Part shown: positions 28,535 to 45,277 of the stretch, piece by piece | How the letters are laid out: every line of letters begins with the position of its first letter | How positions within the stretch are numbered: the stretch's first letter is position 1 | From: Sphingomonadales bacterium | GTDB lineage: Bacteria; Bacteroidota; Bacteroidia; Flavobacteriales_D; Crocinitomicaceae | Direction: 5' to 3' | Assembly (NCBI GenBank): GCA_016872115.1 | Contig: VHBC01000005.1 | Coordinates: 83,848-147,847, forward strand | Length of the DNA: 64,000 bases | The notes under the pieces: generated by a model | What the model saw: the letters and a program-made list of their open reading frames with translations, nothing else | The model's database searches: none | Told to the model about the DNA's origin: nothing | Position numbers and translations under genes: made by a program

Positions 28535-28695
28535 ACGAAATATTAATGTTTCTGGTAGGACAACGCATAATTATTGTCTTTCTAACATAAAGACGGCCTT
28601 TTTAGGCTTATTTTGAAGAGAGCAGGTAAGTTTCCCAAATGAAATTTAATGTAGATTTAACATGAAATCTGAGCGCATAAGTAGTATTTGCAGTC

Positions 28696-28741
28696 ACTTG
28701 TGATTTTCAAAAGTAAGAAGCTCTCGACTTGCGATTTTCAA
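28696..28741. repeat. Two 15-bp direct repeats at 31-bp spacing upstream of lipid operon
   Basis: ACTTGTGATTTTCAA (28696-28710) and ACTTGCGATTTTCAA (28727-28741), 1 mismatch. Confidence 0.7.
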
Positions 28742-28765
28742 TACAATTTTCTTACCTTCAACATT

Positions 28766-28773
28766 TAGCTTTG
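28766..28773 (+). promoter_or_regulatory. -7 element upstream of the 13-gene lipid operon
   Basis: TAGCTTTG matches TANNTTTG; no good -33 TTTG; 7 nt before ATG 28781. Confidence 0.4.
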
Positions 28774-28780
28774 TCTACAT

Positions 28781-29266
28781 ATGAGATTTTATTTAGTCGA
28801 CCGTATAGAAGAGGTAATTCCTGGACAAACAGCCAAAGGCATCAAATGTTGGACGCTATCAGAGGATTACTTTGCAGAACACTTTCCTGGATTCCCAATT
28901 GTGCCGGGAGTTTTGCAGATAGAATCTATGGCGCAGCTCATGGGTATACTCATTGAGCGGTCATATGCCGCTGCGCATCTAGAAAAGGGACGTTGTTATC
29001 CGATTCTAAGTATTGTGCAAAAAGCCAAGTTCAGGGATTCTATTATACCTGGAGACCAAAGCATTATTGAAGTCGTGCTCACATCCTTAGATACCATGCG
29101 CGCCACAGGTAGTGCAAAATTGCTTGTCGAAGGAAAAGTGCGCGCAGAAGCTGATCTGAGTTTTACTATTCTCGAAGCACAGCAGGCAAGCACCAATCCG
29201 TTTATCGCTCAGCGCGATGAATATTATTTATCGCTACAAGTCAAAGAAACACTGAAAAAACGCTAA
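28781..29266 (+). CDS. FabZ-like 3-hydroxyacyl-ACP dehydratase (hotdog fold)
   Basis: FYLVDRIEEVIPGQTAKGIK...FAEHFPGFPIVPGVLQIESMAQLMG. Confidence 0.85.
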   Translation: MRFYLVDRIEEVIPGQTAKGIKCWTLSEDYFAEHFPGFPIVPGVLQIESMAQLMGILIERSYAAAHLEKGRCYPILSIVQKAKFRDSIIPGDQSIIEVVLTSLDTMRATGSAKLLVEGKVRAEADLSFTILEAQQASTNPFIAQRDEYYLSLQVKETLKKR

Positions 29267-30294
29267 TGCTTGCAACGCTTACAGCCATCGGATTTTGGGA
29301 AAGTGAACAGTTTTCTGCAAGTGGGCAATTAGGCCCAAGCGCTTCATTACAAACGAATTCGGCTCGTGTGCAACGTCAGTTTGAACATCTAAATGCAGCA
29401 TTTAGACAAATTCAATTAGATCAAAATCATCCAAAATACCCGAAGCCAAGCGATTTAAAAATATTGCGCAGTGATACCATTGCCGCCTTGATTTTATGTC
29501 AAGAGATGGCTGAACTATATCAGTGGGGACCTTCTTTTACAGAAAACGGCGCCCTGTTTGTTGCAAATAGTAATTTTATCGATGATGACGTACTTGACTT
29601 CGAAGGTATTTCCTTGGCTATTGGCCAACTCCAAAATGCACCCGATCAGGCTAGCGAAAACAAGCTTTTTGGATCAGGGGTGTCTCCGCTTCTTCCCTTA
29701 AGAACCCTTACCAATGGTGCACAGAGCTTTATTGCGCAGTACTTATCTTTTTTTGGGAGTTCCACCACATATGGCAGTACAGGAATTGCTACTGTTCAAG
29801 CCCTGCACGATGCGTGCAATTTTTTGAAAATTGGCGCTTGTCAAAAAGCCTTGGTGGGAGGCGGACACTTTGCCAATTTGTTTTCTTTTGTCAATAATTG
29901 CTTATTAATATCCGACACAGAAGGTTATGCCGAGGCGAGCGCTACAAGTTTTTTTATGCTCGAGCCCTATCATCCAGAAACAAAAGCGCCAGCTGCTTTG
30001 CATATTGTTGAGCACATTGATAGCCTCGAATCGCTGTCTCAGCATCAAGTTGATTGGTTATTTTATGGTGGCGCATTTACACCAGCTCAAGATCAAGAAT
30101 TGCATAAACGCTGCGGTCAATTAGACTATAAAGAGGCTTTTAGTTGGTTTACGCACACTGGTAATCTCGGTGCGGCTGAGCTTGGTATGCTGCTCGCCGT
30201 TGCAGTGAATTGGCTCCATGCCGGTCAGACTGCCATCGTATTGCTCAAAGATGCCTATGATATATTTGAAATTATAAAAGTTCAAAAGGCATGA
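29266..30294 (+). CDS. Beta-ketoacyl synthase-like protein lacking catalytic residues (CLF-like)
   Basis: KS-fold landmarks (ALVGGGHFANLF, THTGNLGAAELGML) but no Cys at the nucleophile position (GSTGIATVQAL) and no HGTGT motif. Confidence 0.7.
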   Translation: MLATLTAIGFWESEQFSASGQLGPSASLQTNSARVQRQFEHLNAAFRQIQLDQNHPKYPKPSDLKILRSDTIAALILCQEMAELYQWGPSFTENGALFVANSNFIDDDVLDFEGISLAIGQLQNAPDQASENKLFGSGVSPLLPLRTLTNGAQSFIAQYLSFFGSSTTYGSTGIATVQALHDACNFLKIGACQKALVGGGHFANLFSFVNNCLLISDTEGYAEASATSFFMLEPYHPETKAPAALHIVEHIDSLESLSQHQVDWLFYGGAFTPAQDQELHKRCGQLDYKEAFSWFTHTGNLGAAELGMLLAVAVNWLHAGQTAIVLLKDAYDIFEIIKVQKA

Positions 30295-31559
30295 GTTCAA
30301 CTAAAGCATATATTATCGACACCCACACGATCAGCCCTTTGGGTCTAGGGACCAGCGAATTATTGGCAGCCCTTCAAGAAAAAAAACAGGCAGCCACGCT
30401 TATTGAACAATTTGACCCTAGCGGACTTGCGCAGTCACATGCCTGTGAGGTGGCAGTAGCGCAGCAAAAATGGTTGGACCAACTGCCAACTGAATGGCAA
30501 GATGTAGCAACCTATGACCGAAAATTTGCACTTTGGGCAATTGCATTATTGAGTCAGCAACAAATGCTCAAAGAAATATTTGCCAACACGCCTACCAATA
30601 GGACAGCTCTTTTTTTAGGTCTGGGCGCAAATGCCTTTCCTGTATTGCGCATTGCCAAAGCAGTAGAGAATTATTCTGCATTTGGACTCAACGAAGCCAT
30701 TGCAAAACTCAATTACAACAATGGTCATAAGGCCAATTCTATTTTCAATCATGCCGATTTATACGGCGCCTATTTTCAGCAAGAAATTGCTGAGGTTGCC
30801 TTTTGCCGCAATCTCATGACAGCATGCTCGAGCAGTACCCAAGCCATTGCTTTTGGTGCGGCCCATATAATGGCTGGTCAGGCAGATTTGGTATTGGCTG
30901 GAGGGACAGATTCAATTATCAATCAGTTCGCATATATTTCTTTTGGCAAATTAGGCGTGCTCAGTCCTGACCAGTGCAGGCCTTTTGATGTAGGTCGGAA
31001 CGGCACAATTGCCGGCGAATGTGCTGGCTTTACACTCCTTGCTTCTGAGGCGTTTGTACATAAAAATAACCTCAAACCCAAAGCTGCGCTCATTGGCTTT
31101 GGAAACAGCATGGATGCTTATAAAATTACTGCACCTGATCCTTCCGGAGCGGGCGTAGAGCGCGCTTTGCGTAGTGCCATTGAAATGTCGGGAATCCGAG
31201 CAGAACAAATAGATTACATCAATGCGCATGGCACAGGAACGCGCTCCAATGACGAAGCGGAATTACGCGCCATAGAACGCGTCGTTGGCGCTGCCGCACC
31301 GCATATATTTGTGAGTTCAACAAAAGATCGCCATGGCCACGCAATTGCCGCTGCTGGGATCCAAGAATTTCATGTACTGACCACTTGTATACTGGCAAAT
31401 CTTATTGCTGCCAATCTCAGTTTTAGCAATCCGTTGCAAACCAACTTACAATTACCTTTCCGCGAAAATAAAACGCATCCAATCCGATACGCACTCACTA
31501 ATAATTTTGCTTTTGGAGGCGTCAATTGCAGTCTGGTACTGGAAAATTTAAATATATGA
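30291..31559 (+). CDS. Beta-ketoacyl-ACP synthase (FabF-like)
   Basis: MTACSSSTQAIAFGAAHIMAGQADLVLAGG, INAHGTGTRSNDEAE, STKDRHGHAIAAAG: intact Cys-His-His. Confidence 0.9.
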   Translation: MSSTKAYIIDTHTISPLGLGTSELLAALQEKKQAATLIEQFDPSGLAQSHACEVAVAQQKWLDQLPTEWQDVATYDRKFALWAIALLSQQQMLKEIFANTPTNRTALFLGLGANAFPVLRIAKAVENYSAFGLNEAIAKLNYNNGHKANSIFNHADLYGAYFQQEIAEVAFCRNLMTACSSSTQAIAFGAAHIMAGQADLVLAGGTDSIINQFAYISFGKLGVLSPDQCRPFDVGRNGTIAGECAGFTLLASEAFVHKNNLKPKAALIGFGNSMDAYKITAPDPSGAGVERALRSAIEMSGIRAEQIDYINAHGTGTRSNDEAELRAIERVVGAAAPHIFVSSTKDRHGHAIAAAGIQEFHVLTTCILANLIAANLSFSNPLQTNLQLPFRENKTHPIRYALTNNFAFGGVNCSLVLENLNI

Positions 31560-32308
31560 ATCTCGACTTAAAAGACAAAGTAGTTTGTATCACCGGGGCC
31601 TCTGGTGGAATCGGCATGGCCATTGCCACTGCATTTTTAGCAGAAGGCGCTGTTGTATGTGCTACCTACAGGCAACACCAAAATAAACTTGATGCATTTT
31701 CCAAAGAACTTTCGCAAGCACAAAAAGCGCTACTTTTTACTTATCACCTCGATTTGCACGACTCAAAAAGTCAAGCAACATGTATATCTGCGATTTGCAA
31801 TGACCATACGCGTATTGATATTTTGGTAAATTGTGCAGGTTCGGCGCTTGAGAAACCTTTTTTACTGCTGACCCCGGAAGAGGTTCAACAACAAATCAGT
31901 ACCAATTTTAGCCAACAAGCCCTTTTTACCCAACAAGTTGCCAAAGTGATGCTGCGTCAACGAAAAGGATCAATTGTTAATATTTCAAGCCTTCTCGGTA
32001 AGCGCCTTGGAAGAGGAGTGGCCGTATATGCAGCAGCAAAAGCTGCAATGGATCGTTTAACCCAAACACTCGCGTTGGAAGTAGGTAAAAAGGGGATTCG
32101 CGTAAATAGCATCAATCCTGGTTTGGTGGCGACTAAAATGAGCAAAAATGTACAAGCGAATATGCCTTCAGAATTTTTGGAAATGAGCCCCATTTCCAGA
32201 CCGGGAACACCAGAAGAAATTGCGAACGCCGTTCTTTTTTTGGCATCGGAAAGGGCTAGTTATATAACCGGAGTCTGTTTATCGGTCGACGGCGGATTAG
32301 GAATTTAA
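31556..32308 (+). CDS. SDR/3-oxoacyl-ACP reductase (FabG-like)
   Basis: VCITGASGGIGMAIA, LVNCAGSALE, YAAAKAAMDRL, SVDGGLGI; ATG 31556 preferred. Confidence 0.9.
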   Translation: MNLDLKDKVVCITGASGGIGMAIATAFLAEGAVVCATYRQHQNKLDAFSKELSQAQKALLFTYHLDLHDSKSQATCISAICNDHTRIDILVNCAGSALEKPFLLLTPEEVQQQISTNFSQQALFTQQVAKVMLRQRKGSIVNISSLLGKRLGRGVAVYAAAKAAMDRLTQTLALEVGKKGIRVNSINPGLVATKMSKNVQANMPSEFLEMSPISRPGTPEEIANAVLFLASERASYITGVCLSVDGGLGI

Positions 32309-32329
32309 AAGCGAAATAAATCAATTATA

Positions 32330-32731
32330 ATGGAACAAAACGAAGCAATCATTGAGCAAATTAAAATTATCATTCAGCAGTCTTGCGGGATAGACCCCGC
32401 AATTATGCATGCCAATTCTACCATTTTTGATGAATTGAGTATCGATTCAATAGATATGGTCGACATCCTTTTTCAGTTAGAGAGACATTACGACATCGAA
32501 CTAAAAATCTCAGAAATTGAACAGCAGTCCAAATTAGAAATGGGGGATGAGCCCTTTGAAATAGACCAAGTCATTACGCCAAAAGGGCTAGAGGTTTTAC
32601 GCCGCAGAATGCCAGAAATTGACCCCGCCAAATTGACCGAAGGACTGACGATGTTCGAAGTGATCAAATTGATCAATATCCAAAGTATGGCTAATATGGT
32701 CGCACATCAGTTGGCTAAAAAAAATAGTTAG
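32330..32731 (+). CDS. Acyl carrier protein with C-terminal insertion (133 aa)
   Basis: STIFDELSIDSIDMVDILFQLERHYDIEL: Ppant Ser in DSID; extra ~45 aa before the last helix. Confidence 0.85.
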   Translation: MEQNEAIIEQIKIIIQQSCGIDPAIMHANSTIFDELSIDSIDMVDILFQLERHYDIELKISEIEQQSKLEMGDEPFEIDQVITPKGLEVLRRRMPEIDPAKLTEGLTMFEVIKLINIQSMANMVAHQLAKKNS

Positions 32732-33871
32732 GTGCGAAACTACATTTATAGAATAGGTGCTTCGGCAAAGCTCTATGGGTTTGATGATCCCATTTTAGAG
32801 GTCCCAATTCTTGGTCAAAAACTTGGAAGTTATCAAGCAAAAGCGTGTACGCAATGGGGTTTTGAACTCATAGATGTTGCCGATCAAAATGCCATCCCCG
32901 TTTCCGAAGAACCCTATTTTTGTTTTGATGCCAAAATGGTCTTTACAACAAAGTTCTTAAGTGCTGCTTTAGACTATGCCAATACGAAAATCAGTGAGAA
33001 TATTCAATTTGGGCTGGAGGGGCATGCAAGTGCGCAGCAACACGCGCTACCTGTTGGCAGCCAAGAAGGTCCGCTTTTGTTTCCGTTTTATTATGTTGGA
33101 AACAGCAAGCAAAAAGCTTTTGAAGAAAAATTACTTTCGGGAAAAGAATATGAATGGGGCATCGAAATGCCGCCTCAGGTGATGCCTGGCGGACGTTACG
33201 CTTTGAATCAGAACCCGGTTTTTGCTGCTTTGTTATTGTCCCCTTTTCATTTGTTGGGGGCCAATATGGCACTGAACCTAAATAGAGGCCTTTCTTTACA
33301 GGAAAAATTACCCAATTGGCTGCGCCAACGTATTTCCAAACCCTTCACAAAGCTCACTTCAATGGGTTTACGCCTTATGAATCAAAAAGGGAAAAATTGC
33401 CGGATTCATCCGAGTGCAGTTGTGGAAGGCTGTGTGCTGGGAGACAACGTTACCGTTGGGGCCAATGCAGTGCTAAGAATGAGTGTGATTGGCAGTGGAA
33501 GTTTCATTGCCGATACGGCTGTGGTTAGCTTTTCTGTAATAGGCGAAAATAATTTTGTGAGCACCGGAAACCATTTGGTTAACTCCATGACTTACCAAGA
33601 TGTATTTACGATTCATGGCCCATATCAGTACAGTATTTTTGGTAAAAACGCTGCCGTATTTGCGACGATCAATTCTGACATCAGACTAGACCTCAAGACG
33701 ATTCGGATTCCGACCGCTATTGGGGTCATTGATTCCAAGCAAATATTTTTAGGCGTTGCTTACGGCCATCGTTGTAAAATTGGCGGGTCGAATATCATTG
33801 CTGCGGGCAGATTGGTACCCAATGATTATGTCTTGAATCCACCTGATTTCATCACTTTGAAGTTTGACTAA
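32732..33871 (+). CDS. Left-handed beta-helix (hexapeptide-repeat) protein
   Basis: NCRIHPSAVVEGCVLGDNVTVGANAVLRMSVIGSGSFIADTAVVSFSVIGENNFVSTG; GTG start directly after ACP stop. Confidence 0.7.
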   Translation: MRNYIYRIGASAKLYGFDDPILEVPILGQKLGSYQAKACTQWGFELIDVADQNAIPVSEEPYFCFDAKMVFTTKFLSAALDYANTKISENIQFGLEGHASAQQHALPVGSQEGPLLFPFYYVGNSKQKAFEEKLLSGKEYEWGIEMPPQVMPGGRYALNQNPVFAALLLSPFHLLGANMALNLNRGLSLQEKLPNWLRQRISKPFTKLTSMGLRLMNQKGKNCRIHPSAVVEGCVLGDNVTVGANAVLRMSVIGSGSFIADTAVVSFSVIGENNFVSTGNHLVNSMTYQDVFTIHGPYQYSIFGKNAAVFATINSDIRLDLKTIRIPTAIGVIDSKQIFLGVAYGHRCKIGGSNIIAAGRLVPNDYVLNPPDFITLKFD

Positions 33872-34963
33872 ATGGAAGCGCAAACGATTTATTTGATGGG
33901 GGCTTATGGCTATACGGCAAAATTAATTGCCAAAGCGCTTTGCGGTGCCCAAATTTCGTTTATTCCGGTTGGTCGCGACGCACAGAAACTGGCCGCGTTT
34001 TGCGATAAAATGCAGCTCGAACCGAATTTTATAGTGGCCGATGTATTGTCTGCGACCGATTTGCAATTTATCCAGTCTAAAGACATCGTGATCAATTGCG
34101 CCGGGCCGTTTAACCAATTTGCACCCACATTAATCGCCGTTTGTGTCGAAAGGGGCGCACATTACATCGATTTAACAGGTGAGCAAGCGATTGTTCATGA
34201 TAGTTACCTACTCTATAAACAAAGCGCCCGGCAAAATCAGATGTGTTTATTGCACTCAATGGCTTTTGAGTCGGCACTTGCTGATTTATTACTGAGTTGT
34301 GCGCTTTCTAATTTGAAAGAGGCGGAAATTGAATCTGTGAATTCTTATTATTGGCTAGTTAGCCAGCAAATGAGCCCCGGGACCAAACTCACTATGAAAT
34401 TAGCTAATTATGCGTCTAATTTTATGATCGACAATAATCAATTAGTTCCGTTCACACAGCAAAAAGCGGCGCCTTTAGTGGGTATTCCTTTTGAGTCGGC
34501 AAGAATTGTTCCGTATCCGGAAGTAATTTTTGCGTTTGAGCGTTGTACGCCTCAGAAAGGCGCCTCGCATTTTTTATTGGAAGCCAATAGCAATATGGCT
34601 TTTGCAGGATCAATGCTCAAAGCTAAGTACCAAGACGCTCCCGCACAAATTCAAGACATCATTACACGCTTCAAACAAATCCTTCATGCAGGACCAAATG
34701 AGGCCGAACGCGCGCAACAATCTTTTGAGTTATATGTAAGTGTTAGTAGTAAGAATCAACAATATATCGGACATTTAAAGGGTCATGACATGTATCAAAT
34801 TACGTCCGCTTTGGTTTTATTGGCTGTCCAAAAGTTGTCATCTGAGCTTCATCAATTTGGCGTCCTGAGTCCTGGTGAATTTCTCGGTCAGAACGGGATA
34901 AACTGGTTGAGTCAAAATACCTTTTTTCAATTCAAACAAGTTCAAACAAATAACGCATCATGA
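33872..34963 (+). CDS. Saccharopine dehydrogenase-like / trans-acting enoyl reductase-like protein
   Basis: IYLMGAYGYTAKLIAKAL Rossmann motif, DIVINCAGPFNQFAPTLIAVCVERGAHYIDLTGE, LLHSMAFESALADLL. Confidence 0.75.
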   Translation: MEAQTIYLMGAYGYTAKLIAKALCGAQISFIPVGRDAQKLAAFCDKMQLEPNFIVADVLSATDLQFIQSKDIVINCAGPFNQFAPTLIAVCVERGAHYIDLTGEQAIVHDSYLLYKQSARQNQMCLLHSMAFESALADLLLSCALSNLKEAEIESVNSYYWLVSQQMSPGTKLTMKLANYASNFMIDNNQLVPFTQQKAAPLVGIPFESARIVPYPEVIFAFERCTPQKGASHFLLEANSNMAFAGSMLKAKYQDAPAQIQDIITRFKQILHAGPNEAERAQQSFELYVSVSSKNQQYIGHLKGHDMYQITSALVLLAVQKLSSELHQFGVLSPGEFLGQNGINWLSQNTFFQFKQVQTNNAS

Positions 34964-37662
34964 GTGCACGTCTTCACTTGGCTTTGTTTCCTTTGCTGCA
35001 AGTTGCCGCCATGATCGGGTTATGGGTATTACCCTTTTTACGTACTGATTGGATTTTATTGTTTGGTGTTGCCGTTTTTATCTTGTGTTGGAACCTTCAT
35101 GTAAGCATCCATTATTTGGTACATCATCCGCCAAAAAATAAAGTGATACGATATTTATTTTTCTTGATTTCTACATTGCTTATTGGCTTGCCTTACCATT
35201 ACTACCAATTATTGCATCGCACCCATCATTTGTACAACAACAACCCAAGAGATTATACAAGTACATGGAAGGAAAAAAGTGGTCAACAAATGCCGCGTAC
35301 TTTTTTGGGATACATCTTTTTCTGGTTTATTCCCACAGTGCCCTTGCCGCAACAAATCAAAGAAGGCCGGCAAAATGACCTTTTACCTACCAAAGACCTT
35401 CAATTATTGGTCGTGGAAACCCTTCTTCTTTGTGTTTTTTATTGCGTTTTGTTCTATACTCAGCCTTGGCTGGCATTGGGTTATTTTGTTTTTATTTATT
35501 TCGGTTGGGTGCTGATCTCAGCACAAAATTATGGGCAGCATTTACCAAGAATAGGAGCACCGCACACAACCAGTATCCATCGAAAATGGTACAATATACT
35601 GACGCTCAATAATGGCTTACATGCCGAGCACCACGACCGTCCCCAAGTGCACTATCATGACTTAGAACCCAATCTAGAACTAGAACCAATCCAATCGGCG
35701 CATCTTTTTGCCGGATTGACATTTCTAAAAGTAAAGAAGTCCTTTCTACTCGTGCTTATACTTTTAGTGGTTTGTTTACTTGCATTACCCAAACTTAAAC
35801 TTACTGGAAGCCTCGATGGCTTTGCTGCTGGCGAAACACCCGTTTTTGTCGATGCACACGCTTATGATTCTTTGTTTGGTCAAAGTAAATACCGTTATTA
35901 TTTCAGTGTTTCGCCAAAAGCGCATGCTGATCTTGGGTTTATTAATTCGGCAGCTGAATTCGAAGCAGCCATTCAAGATTTAGCTCCTCAAGTTGAATTC
36001 ATTAGCAAGGTGTCGCAGTTGCGCCGTTTTGCACGCGCGAGGCTGTTGAAGAATGAGCGCCCGGCTTCCGAATTGCTTGCCAGTGCTGCTGCGCATCCGC
36101 AGCTAGGCAAGCTGATCTCAAAAAACCACCGGTCTTTTTTAATTATTGCCGATTTCAAAGGCAAAAAAATCCCACTCGATCAGCTTGACTCTTTGCAAAA
36201 AATTCCGCGTCGGCACCTGAAACCCATTAGGGGTTTTGGTATGCAAGGACTCGAGGCGGCCATTGCTCACTCCATGCAAGAAGATATTTTCAAAATTACC
36301 GGACTTATTTTTTTGCTTTTTGGCGCCTATCTATTTTGGCGTTATCGTCATTGGACAGCCATCATCTACTTGGTTTGCAATATGTTATTGGCCATCCTCG
36401 CGACGGTTTGTTTGTTTCCCATTTTTGGCTACCAAATGACGGTCGTGAGTATCTTGGCTTTACCCATTGTCTTGGTTTTGTCTTTAAGCGACGCCATTCA
36501 TTTGTTAGGCGGTCTATCCAAAGGCCAGAATAGTTTGCAAACGATCCGAAAAATTTGGGTGCCTTCTTTATTGAGTAGTCTTACAACGGCGTTGGCATTT
36601 TTTAGTTTTCAGTTCAATGATGCGCCCAATATGGTTCAACTCGGCCATATTACAGGAACAGCGGTACTTCTTGAATTTTTGATTTCTATGGCATTGGCAC
36701 AACAATTTTTAGAAAAAGTCAAATTGCAAGAAGCAGAGCAACCGTTGATTGAAAAATTGAGTCAATGGATGCAGCGCCGCCAAAAACAGGTAGGTTTGGG
36801 TTTGTTGGGGTTGGTATTTATTGGGTTATTTTTACTGCCGCAACTCCGTTTTGAAGCCAGTACCGATGATTTTTTCCCAAAGGGTGAAGTAGTTACCAAA
36901 GATCACGCTTATTTCCAAACACAATTCAATGCGCAAAAAGTATTGCATCTTTGGTTTGCCCCTCAAAAGCCCCAAAAGCTTGACCCCAACTATGTTGAGC
37001 AACGCCTCCAGGCGATCAAATCACCCCAATTGTTACATTATGAATTGCACCCTGCAACAGCTCATAAACCACTTTCCGCGAGTCTCTATTTTACTGAGGT
37101 AAGCGCCATTGCAAAATGTTACTGTCAACTCCAAGCGCAAAAATTCTTTGACAATGCGCGTCTTGGCTTACACGCTTATAGCCCTTTTGTGGTATTTGAG
37201 GTGGTCAATAAGCAAGTGGCTAGTTCTTTGTTTTGGAGCTTACTGACGGCCAGTACTGCCATTGTTTTACTGATGCTTTTTCTCACAAAAAGCCCTTTAC
37301 AAGCGTTGTATGGTTTTATACCGAATTTGATACCATTGGCTGCTGTGGTTGTCTTTTTCGTGCTTTTCGACCAAGGCCTCAATATGCTCACTGCACTTAC
37401 GCTTGTCGTTTGCATCGGTCTGCTCGACGACGACACCATTCACGTATTGTATCACAAATATGTGCTCAAAGAACCTGTTACCCAAATGAATGCTGTGATC
37501 ATTCATGCGGCTGTATTGCTGTCTATAGGTTTTGGATGTTTTGTGGTCAGTAATTTTGAGCCCACGCGCATTTTTGGCGGCGTCAGTGCGCTTGTATTTT
37601 TAATCGGTCTACTCGGTGAACTCACGCTCTTTCAATGGATATTAAACCGCATCAAGTCTTAA
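34960..37662 (+). CDS. Fusion: membrane fatty-acid desaturase/hydroxylase domain plus RND/MMPL-type exporter (900 aa)
   Basis: N-terminus with HVSIHYLVHH, HRTHH and HAEHH histidine boxes; C-terminal ~640 aa with two TM1-loop-TM2-6 halves (VLSLSDAIHLLGGL; VCIGLLDDDTIHVLYH). Confidence 0.85.
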   Translation: MSARLHLALFPLLQVAAMIGLWVLPFLRTDWILLFGVAVFILCWNLHVSIHYLVHHPPKNKVIRYLFFLISTLLIGLPYHYYQLLHRTHHLYNNNPRDYTSTWKEKSGQQMPRTFLGYIFFWFIPTVPLPQQIKEGRQNDLLPTKDLQLLVVETLLLCVFYCVLFYTQPWLALGYFVFIYFGWVLISAQNYGQHLPRIGAPHTTSIHRKWYNILTLNNGLHAEHHDRPQVHYHDLEPNLELEPIQSAHLFAGLTFLKVKKSFLLVLILLVVCLLALPKLKLTGSLDGFAAGETPVFVDAHAYDSLFGQSKYRYYFSVSPKAHADLGFINSAAEFEAAIQDLAPQVEFISKVSQLRRFARARLLKNERPASELLASAAAHPQLGKLISKNHRSFLIIADFKGKKIPLDQLDSLQKIPRRHLKPIRGFGMQGLEAAIAHSMQEDIFKITGLIFLLFGAYLFWRYRHWTAIIYLVCNMLLAILATVCLFPIFGYQMTVVSILALPIVLVLSLSDAIHLLGGLSKGQNSLQTIRKIWVPSLLSSLTTALAFFSFQFNDAPNMVQLGHITGTAVLLEFLISMALAQQFLEKVKLQEAEQPLIEKLSQWMQRRQKQVGLGLLGLVFIGLFLLPQLRFEASTDDFFPKGEVVTKDHAYFQTQFNAQKVLHLWFAPQKPQKLDPNYVEQRLQAIKSPQLLHYELHPATAHKPLSASLYFTEVSAIAKCYCQLQAQKFFDNARLGLHAYSPFVVFEVVNKQVASSLFWSLLTASTAIVLLMLFLTKSPLQALYGFIPNLIPLAAVVVFFVLFDQGLNMLTALTLVVCIGLLDDDTIHVLYHKYVLKEPVTQMNAVIIHAAVLLSIGFGCFVVSNFEPTRIFGGVSALVFLIGLLGELTLFQWILNRIKS

Positions 37663-37664
37663 AG

Positions 37665-39479
37665 ATGACGCAAGCAATTCAACATAAAAGAAAAGAAGTT
37701 TGGGCTTTGAATGGCAATGAAGCCATGGCTTATGCGGCACTCCATGCGGGCCTAGACTATTTTGCACATTATCCGGGTTCTCCGGTAAATGGCATCGAAC
37801 CTAAACTCAAACAACTCAATGACTGGCACCAAGCCGGCATTCAATTCAACGATGCCCTCAATGAACATGTAGCCGCATTGGCCGCTATGGGAGCCAGTAT
37901 GACCGGTGCGCGGTCCATGCTCGTCATGAAACACGTGGGACTCAATATTGCCGCGGATCCGCTTAATTATGTAGGATACTCAGGTGTAAAAGGAGGTATG
38001 CTCATAATCGTGGGTACAGATCCTGGGGCCAACTCGAGCACAGGCGAAGAAGACGTGCATTGGTACGCCAAACAATTCAACTTGCCTTTATTTGAACCCA
38101 CGAGTCCGCAGGCGCTTTACGATTGTTGTTATGATGGTTTTGCATTATCTGAGCGCTTGGGCTTACCGATTCTCATTTTTGCCACCGGCTTGATCTGTCA
38201 TCAAAGTACACGAGTTCAGACCAGAGCGGCCGTGGTCAAAGAGCGTCAATACCATTTTGAGAAAGATAGGGAACGCTACATCAATGTAGGTCAGCGTGCG
38301 GTACGTAATCACCGCTTTTTGATCGAAAAAATGCAAGGTTTCGCGTTGGAAAATAACTTTATTGAAGCGCAAGGCGACCCCACTTCTTCATTGGCTGTAT
38401 TGACGCGTGGCAATAGCAGTTTACATTTTGCCGAAGTAAGGCAGCTGATTCCAGCACTTCAAAATGCGTATTGGATTCAGGTTTTAGGTGTATATCCTTT
38501 CGCCAAAACAGTCATTTTGCCTCATTTAATCGGTAAAAAAGAAATTCTGGTCATAGAAGATCAAGATGGATTTTTAGAATATTTGCTCAAAATGGAATGT
38601 TTCAATGAGCTTGAGGCCAGCATCCATGGTAAAGATTTATTTCCAGCCTATGATGAACTCCGGGTCAATGAAATCTTAGAGATCCTATGCAAGTATTTCG
38701 ATCAGCCTTATCCATTCACTGGACTACCTGCCCCGGAAATACCCGAGCGACTGGGTACTTTTTGTGAAGGCTGCCCGCATACCGGAAGCTATTTTGCTAT
38801 TGAGCAAGCCTTGCCAGAGCAAACAAGAATCGTAGGTGGTGATATCGGTTGTTCTTCATTGCCACCTTTTCGTGCCGATTGGTTACTATGTATGAATGCG
38901 GGAATTGGGATTGCTCAAGGAATTGCCCCATTCTTGCAAACCCAACAGCTCGTCTCTACGGGTGGCGATGGCAGTTTTTTTCATGGCGGCTTATTGGCGT
39001 TACTGAATGCCGTTCAAAACAACATCGATTTAGTACATTTAGTTTTTGACAACAAAAGTGTAGCTATGACCGGGCACCAAGTTTCTGCATCCACTTTCGT
39101 AGATTACCGTTCGGTTGTAGAAGGATTAGGCGTTGCTTCGTTTACAGAGGCGAGTGCTTTTCATCCAAAAGAATTAGAGCGCCTTATTCAAGAAAAAGAA
39201 GCTCAGAAAGGCGTGCATGTCATTTGGGTAAGCGGCGCGTGCGCGCGTATTCCGGACGAACGCGCTACATTCAGACGTGCCAATTATGCGCCTCAAATTA
39301 ATGCTTCCAAATGCGAGGACTGCACCCTGTGCTACGAAGCCTTGGCTTGCCCCGCCATTGACAAAAATCCACTCGGGAATTTAGAAATTAACCTTGACCG
39401 CTGTATGCGTTGTGGTGTTTGTTATGAAATATGCCCAAATGGCGCAATTGATCTCCAAGCTAAAAATCATAGCCTATGA
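37665..39479 (+). CDS. iorA: Indolepyruvate ferredoxin oxidoreductase alpha-type subunit (TPP, two 4Fe-4S)
   Basis: GGMLIIVGTDPGANSSTGEEDVHWYAK, GDGSFFHGGLLALLNAVQNNIDLVHLVFDN, C-terminal CEDCTLC..C and CMRCGVCYEICP; ATG 37665 preferred. Confidence 0.9.
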   Translation: MTQAIQHKRKEVWALNGNEAMAYAALHAGLDYFAHYPGSPVNGIEPKLKQLNDWHQAGIQFNDALNEHVAALAAMGASMTGARSMLVMKHVGLNIAADPLNYVGYSGVKGGMLIIVGTDPGANSSTGEEDVHWYAKQFNLPLFEPTSPQALYDCCYDGFALSERLGLPILIFATGLICHQSTRVQTRAAVVKERQYHFEKDRERYINVGQRAVRNHRFLIEKMQGFALENNFIEAQGDPTSSLAVLTRGNSSLHFAEVRQLIPALQNAYWIQVLGVYPFAKTVILPHLIGKKEILVIEDQDGFLEYLLKMECFNELEASIHGKDLFPAYDELRVNEILEILCKYFDQPYPFTGLPAPEIPERLGTFCEGCPHTGSYFAIEQALPEQTRIVGGDIGCSSLPPFRADWLLCMNAGIGIAQGIAPFLQTQQLVSTGGDGSFFHGGLLALLNAVQNNIDLVHLVFDNKSVAMTGHQVSASTFVDYRSVVEGLGVASFTEASAFHPKELERLIQEKEAQKGVHVIWVSGACARIPDERATFRRANYAPQINASKCEDCTLCYEALACPAIDKNPLGNLEINLDRCMRCGVCYEICPNGAIDLQAKNHSL

Positions 39480-40006
39480 CTACCGTTTTGCGCATACTAA
39501 TTGCTGGAGTTGGAGGGCAAGGCATCCATGGCTTTGTCAAAATCTTGCAACAACATCTGTACGCTGAAGGATATGAACTCATCAGTGCTCGTTACAAAGG
39601 GGGCGCCCAAAGTTTGGGGTCAGTGCATGCCGAATGTAAAATATTTCTTCAAGATACTGCTCAACAAGAACAGATGAGTAGTCAGATTATTCCGGGCACC
39701 CTGGATGTCTTACTTGGCCTTGAGCGCTATGAAACACTGCGTTTTCTGCCTTATTGTAATGCAAATACTTTAATTGTTTGTGACCACTACACAGAATTTC
39801 CGCCAGGAACCAAGCGCCAGCCTCATCAGGCCAATATTGATACTTTTTTTAGCTCACTCAGCAACCCACTCATTAGTAAAGATTTCGTTGCGTTGGCCAA
39901 GCAAACTGGTTTGGAAAAATCCAAATTACCCATTTTACTATTTAACGAAGCTTGTACTGCTATAAAAGTCCCATTTAAACCTATACCATTAAACCCATCA
40001 TTATGA
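39476..40006 (+). CDS. iorB: Indolepyruvate ferredoxin oxidoreductase beta-type (gamma domain) subunit
   Basis: ILIAGVGGQGIHGFVKILQQHLYAEGYELISARYKGGAQSLGSVHAECKI. Confidence 0.9.
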   Translation: MTTVLRILIAGVGGQGIHGFVKILQQHLYAEGYELISARYKGGAQSLGSVHAECKIFLQDTAQQEQMSSQIIPGTLDVLLGLERYETLRFLPYCNANTLIVCDHYTEFPPGTKRQPHQANIDTFFSSLSNPLISKDFVALAKQTGLEKSKLPILLFNEACTAIKVPFKPIPLNPSL

Positions 40007-41370
40007 ATTGGAGAGAAACTTCAAGAGAAGCTATGCATTGGCATACAAATGAACAAGGCACAAAAATTGTTTGTGATTTGTGTCCTAGACATTGTCAAAC
40101 ACAACCCGGTCAGATGGGTTTTTGCAAAGTTCGAGGCAATGTGGATGGCACCTTTCATACCTTTAATTTCGGAAAGTCAGTGACGGCCACACAAGAGTGC
40201 ATTGAAACTGAAGCGGTGAATCATTACATGCCCGGTGCACGCATTTTAAGTTTGGGTAATATTGGTTGCATGATGGCTTGCAGTTATTGTCAGAACTGGC
40301 AGACCTCGCAGATCAAACACCTCAACGATGCACACGTTTTTGAATACAGTCCGCAGCAAGTGATTGATTTAGCATTAGCCAATGACATCAAAGTTATTTC
40401 TTGGACCTACAACGACCCCGTAGTTTGGCACGAGTTTGTATTGGAAACATCCAAATTAGCGAAAGCAGCAGGGCTTACTACGCTTTACAAATCAGCCCTT
40501 TACATCGAGCTTGAGCCGCTACGTGAGTTAATTGAGGTCATCGATATTTTTTCAATTTCACTCAAGTGCATGGACGACGCCATTTACCGTAAAGAAAACA
40601 AAGGTAAGCTACAACCCGTTTTGGATGCGATTGAATTGATTGCCGCCTCTGATCGCCATTTAGAAATTTCGCAATTGGTGGTGACGGGTCTAAACGACGA
40701 CGGCACCGATGCCATCAAGACGGCGCGCTGGATGCGCGAAAAGTTGAAACCTGAGGTGCCGCTGCATTTGGTTGCGTATCATCCAAGTTTTAAATATAAA
40801 AAGCCCCGCACCGAACTGGCTACACTTCTTAAGCTCAGAGAGTTGGTAATCAATGAGGGCATACAATACGTTTATCTAGGCAACGTTTATGCCGATGACA
40901 TGAGCAACACCCACTGTAAAAGTTGTTCCAATTTACTTGTTGAGCGCTTCGGTTTATCGGTTCATGTACCGGGGCTAGATGCCGATGGAAAATGCAAAAA
41001 GTGCCAGACTCCTTCGGTGATACGCCATGCATTGGCCGGGCAGCCCGAAAGAAAGCAAGTGCTTGCTCATTTTGAGGCCGTACAAACGCATTCGTTTACT
41101 TGGAACGACGAGATCCGTTCAGTGCACATTTTCTTAACCAACCCGCAAAAAGAACCTGTTCAGATCAAGCTGACCCGCCTACCTCAAGGCAGTGTACAGT
41201 ACCTCGAATTGAATGAAGGTCTTGAAAGAATTATTCTATCCAAAAGTAGCGCTGATGAAAGCGAACTTCGTTTGGAGGCCGCCTGCCAGACGCCATTGCA
41301 TATTTTACCGGTGCTCGACCGCGCCCATTTTCCAGTTATAGACGAAACCAAAACTTCGAGTTATGCATAA
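40003..41370 (+). CDS. AmrS-like (AmmeMemoRadiSam system) radical SAM protein with C-terminal extension
   Basis: CDLCPRHCQTQPGQMGFCKVR, NIGCMMACSYCQNWQTS (CX3CX2C), VPLHLVAYHPSFKY, C-terminal CKSC...CKKC. Confidence 0.88.
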   Translation: MNWRETSREAMHWHTNEQGTKIVCDLCPRHCQTQPGQMGFCKVRGNVDGTFHTFNFGKSVTATQECIETEAVNHYMPGARILSLGNIGCMMACSYCQNWQTSQIKHLNDAHVFEYSPQQVIDLALANDIKVISWTYNDPVVWHEFVLETSKLAKAAGLTTLYKSALYIELEPLRELIEVIDIFSISLKCMDDAIYRKENKGKLQPVLDAIELIAASDRHLEISQLVVTGLNDDGTDAIKTARWMREKLKPEVPLHLVAYHPSFKYKKPRTELATLLKLRELVINEGIQYVYLGNVYADDMSNTHCKSCSNLLVERFGLSVHVPGLDADGKCKKCQTPSVIRHALAGQPERKQVLAHFEAVQTHSFTWNDEIRSVHIFLTNPQKEPVQIKLTRLPQGSVQYLELNEGLERIILSKSSADESELRLEAACQTPLHILPVLDRAHFPVIDETKTSSYA

Positions 41371-42481
41371 ACTCACCAAAGTATTAAAGCACCGCGTAGA
41401 TACCACTAATGCAGATCCGGTGGTTACACCAATCTACCAGAACAGTGCGTTTTCTGCCAGCTCACCGTTTTTTTATACGCGTAAAAACAATCCGAATGTA
41501 GAAGAATTAGAGCAAGTCTTTTGTGCGCTCGAGGAGTCAGCTTTCGCTGTTTGCTGTTCGACAGGAATGGCAGCCATTTCAAATACCTTATTGCTGCTCA
41601 AACCCGGTGACCATTTGGTGATCAATCAGCTCATTTATGGTTGTTCTTATGTTTTGTTTGAGCGATTTTGTGCGCAATATAACATCAAATTATCGGTTTT
41701 GGATCTTTCTTCGAATGAAGGAATAGAAGCCATTCCGCTAGATGTTTCGATGGTATTATTTGAAACACCCACCAATCCATTTGTGCGCAGTATTGACATC
41801 TCAAATGTGAGTGCGAAAGCCAAAGCGCATAATCCAAATGCATTGGTTGTCGTGGATAATACTTGGGCCACACCATTGTTTCAGCAACCTTTGTTGCATG
41901 GTGCAGATATTGCATTGTACTCTGCCACGAAATATTTTTCAGGTCATTCAGATGTCATGGGAGGCGTCCTCACCACAAATTCAGACGGCTTAGCACAGCA
42001 TTTGCGCGATGCACGTTTTTACCACGGAGCTATTCTCGATCCCAATAGTGCTTGGTTGTTGCGCCGCAGCATGCAAACTTTTGAATTACGTATGAAAGCG
42101 CAAGGCGAAGCAACAAGAATTGTTCGAGATTGGCTTGCACAACAGAATGGTGTCGAGGAAGTATTTTACCCGACCATAGATGGCGTTCAGTTAACCGGCT
42201 ACGCTACGCTTTTGTTTTTTACATTGGAAGCGCGCCTCAGCGAAAAGTACGATGCATTTATTGAAGCGCTTACTTTGTTTGACACCGGAACTGGAATGGC
42301 CTGCGTTACTTCAATGGTGGCAAGGCCGTATACCGGAAGCCATGCCTCCATGAACGATGCCCAAAAAGCGCAAATGGGCCTCACCAAACAATTGGTGCGC
42401 TTGAGCATTGGTCTGGAACAAATTGAAGACCTCATTGCCGACCTCAGCCACGCATTTGAAATGATTCAATCCAATGAATAA
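41363..42481 (+). CDS. Cys/Met metabolism PLP-dependent enzyme (cystathionine/methionine gamma-lyase-type)
   Basis: VVTPIYQNSAF, CSTGMAAISN, VDNTWATPLFQQPLLHGADIALYSATKYFSGHSDVMGG (PLP Lys), LVRLSIGLEQIEDLIADL. Confidence 0.9.
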   Translation: MHKLTKVLKHRVDTTNADPVVTPIYQNSAFSASSPFFYTRKNNPNVEELEQVFCALEESAFAVCCSTGMAAISNTLLLLKPGDHLVINQLIYGCSYVLFERFCAQYNIKLSVLDLSSNEGIEAIPLDVSMVLFETPTNPFVRSIDISNVSAKAKAHNPNALVVVDNTWATPLFQQPLLHGADIALYSATKYFSGHSDVMGGVLTTNSDGLAQHLRDARFYHGAILDPNSAWLLRRSMQTFELRMKAQGEATRIVRDWLAQQNGVEEVFYPTIDGVQLTGYATLLFFTLEARLSEKYDAFIEALTLFDTGTGMACVTSMVARPYTGSHASMNDAQKAQMGLTKQLVRLSIGLEQIEDLIADLSHAFEMIQSNE

Positions 42482-43586
42482 AAAACAAGAAGCGTTGTCT
42501 TTATTGCGCTTAAAGGCCTTGGCCATTGTTGCCTTATTGGTGCTGCATCTGACGCTCTCTTTTACCTGGATTCCGGGTTTATTCGGCATTTGGCCTGTTG
42601 CCGTTAAAGCGCCTAGCATGAACCTCACTGGATTTGCAGCTTTGCTCAATTTGTTTGGTTTGGTATTGTTTTTTATTTTGTCGGGCGTTTTATTGCGTCA
42701 AAAAGCCCTGACCAACATTTCTTATTTATTGCAAAAAGCCAAGCAAAATCTTTTTCGCTTTGCAGGCTACTATATATTACTTTCCGTCCTATTTTACTTG
42801 CTCTTGACGCTATCTAAAGGCCGAATTTTGCGCGCCGATGAGCTTGGTTTTTTATACTCGCTTTATCATTTATGGTTTTTGGTGGCGCTCGCCTTTTTTC
42901 AGTTCTTTATTTGGGCAGCTAAAAAATTAGGAGGTATTTCAGTGCTGCAAATGCCTATCCCCCTTTTAATCCCGATTGCCACACATGCCATTTGCCTCTA
43001 TTTACAAGGCGGAATTTTTTTAAAGACACCTACACAAATTGACACAAACACAATGCTTTCGTTGGTCGTATATTTCATATGGTTTTGCTATGGCCTGAGC
43101 TTGAATTCTGTTTTGGATTTGCCTGAGCTTCCAAAAATGAAGACTTGGGTTACACCAATAACCTTTCTTGTATTTTATTTTTTGAGTAAGGCTGCGCTGA
43201 TTTTTTCGTGGTCTAGTGCTCCCGTTTGGAGAATTTTAAGCGCACTTATAGATCCACTGGTATTTTTTGCCGTTTTGGTTATTTGGTTCAAAATAGAATC
43301 GCGGTTTTTAAAAAAAGAGCAAGAAGCTTCGCAAGTTTCATTTTGGCAAGAGCTACTGCAGCGTTATCAACTGCGGATTTACGTCTTTCAGATTCCATTG
43401 ATATTTATTTGGATAGCGGTCTTAGAAAAATGTGGTGTGTCGGTTCAGAATGAAGTATTGATGGCTGGCTTAAAACCAAATTGGAACGAAGCGTTGGCCA
43501 CATGGATTTTGTTCAACCTCACCCTTTGGGTCTTTGGCTTTTGGGTATGGCGGTGGTTGAAAAAACAAAAAACCCCTGCATCATAA
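42474..43586 (+). CDS. Membrane acyltransferase-3-like protein
   Basis: SLLRLKALAIVALLVLHLTLSF, LILFFILSGVLLRQKA-type TM pattern, about 10 TM segments; 8-bp overlap with previous gene. Confidence 0.65.
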   Translation: MNKKQEALSLLRLKALAIVALLVLHLTLSFTWIPGLFGIWPVAVKAPSMNLTGFAALLNLFGLVLFFILSGVLLRQKALTNISYLLQKAKQNLFRFAGYYILLSVLFYLLLTLSKGRILRADELGFLYSLYHLWFLVALAFFQFFIWAAKKLGGISVLQMPIPLLIPIATHAICLYLQGGIFLKTPTQIDTNTMLSLVVYFIWFCYGLSLNSVLDLPELPKMKTWVTPITFLVFYFLSKAALIFSWSSAPVWRILSALIDPLVFFAVLVIWFKIESRFLKKEQEASQVSFWQELLQRYQLRIYVFQIPLIFIWIAVLEKCGVSVQNEVLMAGLKPNWNEALATWILFNLTLWVFGFWVWRWLKKQKTPAS

Positions 43587-43598: not shown

Positions 43599-43604
43599 AA
43601 GGTG

Positions 43605-43675
43605 AGGTCTCAAGCGGATTCGAACCGCTGTAGACGGTTTTGCAGACCGGTGCCTAACCGCTCGGCCATGAGACC
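43605..43675 (-). tRNA. tRNA-Cys (GCA)
   Basis: Minus: GGTCTCATGGCCGAGCGGTTAGGCACCGGTCTGCAAAACCGTCTACAGCGGTTCGAATCCGCTTGAGACCT; cloverleaf with GGTTCGAATCC T arm and GCA anticodon. Confidence 0.95.
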
Positions 43676-43723: not shown

Positions 43724-45277
43724 TTAGAACTTGATGAGTTTTTTTGACAACAACTGACCACCAAGGCGTGCCGATAAATAATAAACGCCATTGGGCAGCT
43801 TGTTCCAATCGATTTGTTCTGGACCTAATTGAAGTTCGGTTGTGCCGCTTTCAGGTTCCAATTTGAATTCAAGTTGACCACTTGCATTGTAGAAATAGAG
43901 TTGGTCGTTAGGTTCAAGACTTTTCGGAAAGGACAACGTCAGCTGTTGATCAAAAGGGTTAGGGTAGGCCACAATAGAACTGTTGTCATTAATTGGGTAA
44001 TCATTCAAAGATGCACTGATAAGTGCTTCGAGGTCGTAGGTTTCATCACCAGGTTGGTATGGCAAAAAATGGAAATAAGTTAAAAACATTTCATCTGTGG
44101 TATTGAAACCGCTGTAGATGGTTTGTGGTGGCGTATTTGGATTATTGGGATTATTGGCTGTATTGTCATAGGTACCTTCGCTTTTGAGTTTGTAACCCTG
44201 AGGAACCTTTTGCATGAATTTAAAGAAATAGAAATCTTGCCACATGAAATCCCATTTGGGAATATTGACAAACTTGATGGTATCGGCCCCAGGTTTATAT
44301 GCATAGGCCTTGATTTTAGTGCCGGTAAGGTGCATGTGCGGAAAGACGGAAAGCACTGAGAAATTGGTCGGAATGGTATTGGCTCCTGGCGGGTACACAG
44401 CATTTAAATTTGAAACCTGATTGGCCGGCAAACTAAAGTTGTAATTCGCCAGTAAAGGTCCGGCACTGATTTGCCGCACGTTGGTGGTTCCGACTGGATA
44501 AAAGTGCAAGATAACTTTGGTGGAGTCGTAGAGTCCATAAGAACCTATTGGGTAATGCATGGCAAAATAAATCGAGGAACCGGGCCCGATATCGAGGCCA
44601 AGTTTGACTGGATCGGTGGAGGGCAAAATCATTGGTGTGGCACCTGGCGTGTAGCCAGTAATGAGCTTGGTGCTGCCATTACTTGGACTAGCGCAATTGC
44701 CGCCAATGGTATCGGTACTTTCTATGCTCGTAGGATCTAAGTAAACCAAACAATGATGCACAATTTCTCGGTTACCCGGAACAACCTCAACGGCTTTGAT
44801 GATACGGTTTTGGGTCATGTTGGTCGGAATATTAAAGCAAACGTAGTCATCTTGAGTTGTTGCTTTGGACATATAGGTTGGAATTTGCACTTGCAAATCG
44901 CCATTTCCCAAGAAAGTATTCGAGGTGTAAACTGGTGGAGGAGGTGTTTGGTTGGGGTTTCCTTCTTGGGCTCCATTATTGAGCCACCCGATAATCGTTG
45001 TTTTCTCGGTGTTTGAAAGTGCGCGATTGTGTTGGTATTGTTGGTAGTTGTTGTCTGGCGGCCAGGGCGGCATCTCGCCAGTATTGACGCACTGATATAC
45101 AGCCGCGGCCAATGGGCTCACCTCGGCGTGGGTCATGAGTGAAAACGGAGCCGCACCACCCGGATGATGGCATGCCGTGCACTTGTTGTAAAAAATTTGA
45201 GCGACATCACTGCTCCAAGTTTGAGCAGAGAGCAGTAAAGGGAACAGAATTGAAGAAACGAGTAGAATTTTTTTCAT
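43724..45277 (-). CDS. Secreted c-type cytochrome / Cu type II ascorbate-dependent monooxygenase-like protein with T9SS sorting domain
   Basis: CTACHHPGGAAPFSL (CXXCH), VHHCLVYLD, MHYPIG, FPHMHLTG copper-type His motifs; C-terminal NGVYYLSARLGGQLLSKKLIKF. Confidence 0.75.
   Translation of the reverse strand: MKKILLVSSILFPLLLSAQTWSSDVAQIFYNKCTACHHPGGAAPFSLMTHAEVSPLAAAVYQCVNTGEMPPWPPDNNYQQYQHNRALSNTEKTTIIGWLNNGAQEGNPNQTPPPPVYTSNTFLGNGDLQVQIPTYMSKATTQDDYVCFNIPTNMTQNRIIKAVEVVPGNREIVHHCLVYLDPTSIESTDTIGGNCASPSNGSTKLITGYTPGATPMILPSTDPVKLGLDIGPGSSIYFAMHYPIGSYGLYDSTKVILHFYPVGTTNVRQISAGPLLANYNFSLPANQVSNLNAVYPPGANTIPTNFSVLSVFPHMHLTGTKIKAYAYKPGADTIKFVNIPKWDFMWQDFYFFKFMQKVPQGYKLKSEGTYDNTANNPNNPNTPPQTIYSGFNTTDEMFLTYFHFLPYQPGDETYDLEALISASLNDYPINDNSSIVAYPNPFDQQLTLSFPKSLEPNDQLYFYNASGQLEFKLEPESGTTELQLGPEQIDWNKLPNGVYYLSARLGGQLLSKKLIKF

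Follow-up and report, generated by a model that had tools for sequence, protein, structure and literature searches.

The window, i.e. the whole stretch of 64,000 nucleotides that was analysed, contains an operon of 13 genes whose orientation is opposite to that of the neighbouring exbB gene. The operon lies within an accessory insertion, and one of its genes encodes a protein in which a membrane desaturase-like domain is joined to an RND-type transporter. The features of the insertion, together with the unfused pair of genes that was found in a related genome (G109), are listed in Table 1.

Table 1. Coordinates of the operon, its borders and the related unfused genes. Positions refer to the window, except for the two G109 genes, which are given by contig (C9).
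Feature	Position	Strand	Remarks
Accessory insertion with operon, ~15 kb	28596..43566	.	exbB upstream region to tRNA-Cys terminator
FabZ-type 3-hydroxyacyl-ACP dehydratase	28781..29266	+	PF07977
Ketosynthase-like protein, chain-length-factor-like (CLF)	29266..30294	+	without catalytic Cys/His
Ketosynthase (KS)	30291..31559	+	Cys-His-His intact (TACSSS, HGTGT, KDRHGH)
Ketoreductase (KR)	31559..32308	+	FabG-like SDR
Acyl carrier protein (ACP)	32330..32731	+	DSID serine
Left-handed beta-helix (LbH, hexapeptide) protein	32732..33871	+	possible acyltransferase; operon marker
Saccharopine-dehydrogenase-like NAD(P)-binding protein	33872..34963	+	candidate trans-acting enoyl reductase
Desaturase-RND fusion protein	34960..37662	+	single ATG-to-stop frame, 900 aa
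Fusion N-domain, residues 1-258	34960..35733	+	FA_desaturase PF00487, three His boxes
Fusion C-domain, residues 259-900	35734..37659	+	12-TM RND transporter, HAE3/HpnN-like
IorA-like TPP/Fe-S 2-oxoacid:ferredoxin oxidoreductase subunit	37635..39479	+	
IorB-like subunit	39476..40006	+	PF01558
Radical SAM protein, AmmeMemoRadiSam type	40003..41370	+	TIGR04337, above cut-off
PLP enzyme, cystathionine/methionine gamma-lyase family	41363..42481	+	
Acyltransferase-3 family membrane protein	42474..43586	+	weak match, at cut-off
tRNA-Cys(gca), right border of insertion	43604..43675	-	
G109 unfused desaturase	C9:43135-43908		257 aa, 35% identical to fusion N-half
G109 unfused transporter	C9:43905-46004		699 aa, 31% identical to fusion C-half

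The active sites were intact in the KS, the ACP and the dehydratase and absent from the CLF, and, taken as a whole, the operon seems to encode a type II fatty-acid/polyketide-like pathway that is as yet undescribed. Since one other KS and two other stand-alone desaturases are encoded elsewhere in the genome, the operon is likely specialised. A second IorA was not found in the genome. The start of the fusion gene is overlapped by 4 bp by the saccharopine-dehydrogenase-like gene, and its end by 28 bp by the IorA gene, as in translationally coupled operons. The signal obtained in a scan for promoters and terminators was equal to that of the shuffled background. The genes for IorA, IorB, the AmmeMemoRadiSam-type radical SAM protein and the gamma-lyase-family PLP enzyme formed a conserved block (37635-42481) inside the fatty-acid-like operon, with the radical SAM protein, at 60-94% identity, as one of the best conserved members. 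The ACP was unusually long (133 aa), with a C-terminal extension after the carrier domain that was conserved in four species.

The homology of the flanking DNA broke at approximately 28595 on the left side and at approximately 43567 on the right side, where the right break coincides with the start of the terminator-like hairpin of the tRNA-Cys gene. In sibling species, exbB adjoined a copper monooxygenase-like gene and the operon was absent at that site. The empty sibling sites and the homology breaks therefore indicate that the operon of about 15 kb is an insertion next to a tRNA gene, and an optional one. When the LbH protein served as the marker, the operon was detected in 4 of the 299 genomes of the order, all four of which belong to one genus; it was found nowhere else in a sample of 399 genomes of the phylum, in which the weak LbH matches spanned the hexapeptide stretch only. 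In G109, the operon occupies another site than in the window species, and a tmRNA gene lies near it (L033 12889-13289). The interval between exbB and the tRNA-Cys gene was variable among the loci compared (L068-L073), being empty in some siblings and holding the 15-kb operon in three species; in L071 and L072, a small lipoprotein-like gene of about 135 aa is present there. Positions 43724-45277 of the window encode a secreted protein that starts like a cytochrome, carries copper type II monooxygenase-like domains and has a Por secretion tail.

An earlier note on this DNA, made from the sequence alone, had described the fusion as a single continuous polypeptide of 900 aa with three desaturase His boxes in its N-terminal part and a duplicated RND layout in the remainder. 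This description proved correct wherever it could be compared with the sequence, and the frame was confirmed to run uninterrupted from ATG to stop. The His boxes were located at residues 47-56 (HVSIHYLVHH), 86-90 (HRTHH) and 221-225 (HAEHH), and the FA_desaturase model PF00487 matched residues 31-236 with an E value of 4.5e-19 and 69.6 bits, compared to a Pfam cut-off of 29.7. The N-terminus was thus assigned to an enzymatic family by the domain search; an assignment to a non-enzymatic one had been named in the note as evidence against the proposal. The cut-off of PF00487 was also exceeded by the fused orthologues and by the unfused homologue. In the hydropathy profile, averaged over three orthologues, five hydrophobic segments preceded residue 190 and twelve followed residue 258.

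For the C-half, the hydropathy profile gave the layout typical of RND proteins, with TM1, a loop of 162 aa, TM2-7, a loop of 127 aa and TM8-12. The two motifs that the note had put at the charged positions, SLSDAIHLL and LLDDDTIHVLYH, were placed within TM4 and TM10, respectively, or at the ends of these helices. D511 and H514 in TM4, as well as D823-D825 and H828 in TM10, were invariant across the fused and unfused homologues. The C-terminal residues, about 640 in number, matched the NCBIfam models HpnN (4e-10) and HAE3 (8e-8), both far under the equivalog or subfamily cut-offs (for the HpnN models, 38.3 bits versus a cut-off of 752 with TIGR03480 and 23.8 bits versus 1100 with NF052374). When an alignment profile of the C-half was compared with the PDB, the crystal structures of HpnN ranked first (7e-15), followed by Dispatched, NPC1-like proteins and MmpL4. 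As regards the label "RND/MMPL-type" of the earlier note, the RND part stood, while the MMPL part proved loose: PF03176 (MMPL) gave no Pfam match at E<=1 with the fused C-half, whose nearest described relatives by profile are RND proteins of the HpnN/HAE3 type. The unfused transporter homologue, which is 31% identical, reached 33.1 bits with PF03176, compared to a cut-off of 20.5, and also passed the sterol-sensing model. That the C-half is itself HpnN, a hopanoid exporter, was ruled out by the score and the operon context. On sequence grounds, the N-domain thus belongs to the fatty-acid desaturase superfamily, and the C-half is an RND transporter of the HAE3/HpnN-like kind.

Alignments of the junction revealed no extra domain, and the C-terminal segment of the desaturase continues into the first transporter helix. 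In desaturase-type domains both termini are cytoplasmic, and the N-terminus of RND proteins is likewise. With cytoplasmic termini on both sides, the join between desaturase and transporter is topologically sound. AlphaFold models built from two sequences each had a pLDDT of 36 for the whole protein and 54 for the N-domain, and a fold search with the low-confidence model of the N-domain matched nothing meaningful.

Since the assembly behind the window is a draft of 65 contigs, and one relative has two adjacent ORFs in place of the fusion, it may be asked whether a sequencing or assembly error merged two ORFs, which the earlier note had also considered. However, when 60 relatives were searched, the whole fusion (residues 4-899) was recovered from two other congeneric species. 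These copies are 63% and 61% identical to it, are free of stops and show no gap at the junction; such an error is therefore extremely improbable. The ratio of pN to pS was well below 1 in both halves of the fusion; between the two orthologues from these other species, for example, pN was 0.17 versus a pS of 0.75, and 0.13 versus 0.69. Since synonymous sites are near saturation, only the direction of pN/pS was used, and by this measure both halves appear to be under purifying selection.

When 90 genomes of the genus were searched, G109 was the only further one with a homologue of the N-domain, namely an open frame of 259 codons. It overlaps the transporter gene that follows it by 4 bp, and the gene order of the G109 operon matches that of the window from the dehydratase through the PLP enzyme. 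An acyltransferase-3 gene lying upstream of the G109 operon was too divergent to be counted as conserved. That G109 encodes both parts as separate adjoining genes indicates that the fusion is real, and since the pair is unfused in the same operon, the fusion joined two neighbouring cistrons. Both parts occur alone elsewhere, and the fusion is therefore probably the derived state. Outside the three fused species, profile and protein searches with the N-domain at the level of class, phylum and family returned short stand-alone frames only, and the matches outside the operon were generic members of the family, which counts against the explanation that we favour; a search of plasmids returned generic rhizobial desaturases only, and a search of viral contigs returned none. 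The adjoining genes of G109 also independently support a functional link between the desaturase and the transporter.

The assignment to PF00487 leaves some breadth in what the N-domain may do. Hydroxylases and ketolases are also included in this family, no close characterised relative was found, and no sequence in the PDB was matched by the profile of the N-domain. It is thus possible, if rather doubtful, that the N-domain is a hydroxylase, a ketolase or another oxidative enzyme, or a dead module that binds lipid for the exporter. Ten histidines of the N-domain (H47, H51, H55, H86, H89, H90, H194, H221, H224 and H225) were, however, invariant across the fused and unfused proteins of four species, even in the unfused homologue of 35% identity. 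The invariance of the His boxes argues against a dead domain and does not separate a desaturase from a hydroxylase. The hydroxylase or ketolase alternative overlaps with the explanation that we favour, which allows desaturation or hydroxylation.

We consider that the 900-aa protein is probably a tailoring-and-export unit of a small accessory lipid or polyketide pathway. We infer the following scheme, which covers the chemistry of the pathway and its substrate, the way in which transport runs, the sequence of evolutionary events and what is gained by fusing the two halves. IorA and IorB would produce, from a 2-oxo acid, the acyl-CoA starter that the KS, the CLF, the KR and the dehydratase would extend on the ACP. 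The saccharopine-dehydrogenase-like protein would serve as the enoyl reductase acting in trans; this assignment is tentative and follows the precedent of Rv2953, a saccharopine-dehydrogenase-like protein that is a trans-acting enoyl reductase in the mycobacterial polyketide (PDIM) pathway (PMC3089613). The LbH protein, the acyltransferase-3 protein or both might then transfer the chain to a carrier or a lipid. The N-terminal di-iron-type membrane domain would oxidise the membrane-embedded chain by desaturation or hydroxylation at the cytoplasmic face, and the proton-driven RND half would take the product from the membrane to the periplasm or the outer membrane. The fusion gene may have arisen by the loss of a stop between two overlapping, adjoining genes of the same operon, and its benefit may be a fixed 1:1 stoichiometry and proximity.

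The fusion hints that modification and export of the product occur as one step. Alternatively, the two halves may have been joined for mere convenience, such as co-expression, membrane insertion or 1:1 dosage, without any mechanistic coupling; the desaturase-like domain would then act on membrane lipids or on intermediates before their release, and the transporter would act independently. The unfused form that is kept by G109, which indicates that the fusion is not required, and the direct join without an added linker domain are consistent with this alternative. Nevertheless, three divergent species (61-63% identity) have kept the fusion with both halves constrained, and we regard a join without coupling as unlikely, at roughly one chance in a few. 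The most economical reading links modification to export, because the fusion is conserved and lies inside an operon of genes that build acyl chains. In its strongest form, which we put forward only tentatively, a polyketide or acyl lipid embedded in the membrane would be oxidised by the di-iron domain and passed directly to the RND half, as a covalent analogue of the contact between synthase and transporter in mycobacteria. The lipid so handed over might possibly be an uncharacterised one, made by a type II synthase that is fed by IorAB and the radical SAM protein.

A limited search of the open-access literature for fusions of a desaturase with an RND/MMPL protein, and for PKS operons that contain IorAB, returned nothing relevant; the earlier note knew of no characterised example either. 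Each half derives from a known superfamily, and the novelty therefore lies in the domain architecture, which we rate as new. Natural fusions indicate protein partners, and a genus whose otherwise syntenic operons contain the pair either fused or unfused provides a clean natural experiment on whether tailoring and export are coupled.

The nearest parallel in operon logic is the aryl polyene (APE) operon of E. coli CFT073, in which KS, CLF, KR, DH and ACP genes are paired with the RND transporter ApeM (PMC8253772). Similarly, in the operon of the window an RND transporter is accompanied by genes for KS, CLF, KR, dehydratase and ACP, and this KS shares 30% identity with ApeO over 388 aa. However, the operon here has a fused RND transporter and desaturase, both the fusion and the desaturase being absent from APE, and it also includes genes for the reductase, IorAB, the radical SAM protein and the PLP enzyme. 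Conversely, none of the 13 genes corresponds to the acyl-ACP synthetase, thioesterase, LolA-like, DUF3261, methyltransferase and glycosyltransferase genes of APE. A profile comparison of the RND half with ApeM was not significant, and the parallel with APE is therefore confined to operon logic. Because the companion genes are missing and the RND half is unlike ApeM, membership in the aryl polyene family was ruled out.

The RND transporter MmpL7 of mycobacteria is a binding partner of the polyketide synthase PpsE (PMC1238737). Together with the APE operons, this binding provides a precedent for the coupling of synthesis and export. The PDIM system resembles the operon here in its polyketide-type synthesis, its saccharopine-dehydrogenase-like reductase and its RND exporter; in contrast, the association of MmpL7 with PpsE is non-covalent and involves a type I synthase, and the transporter carries no fused desaturase. 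A coupling of lipid tailoring with RND-driven export has been raised for MmpL7-PpsE, where it is hard to test. HpnN/HAE3 is the nearest described family to the C-half by profile; compared with HpnN, the periplasmic loops of the C-half are shorter, at 162 and 127 aa, and its operon is fatty-acid/PKS-like rather than hopanoid. A natural fusion with an integral-membrane di-iron oxygenase, AlkB, occurs in Fontimonas thermophila (PMC10113152). The partner there is AlkG, the electron-transfer protein of the enzyme, whereas in the fusion described here the partner is a transporter.
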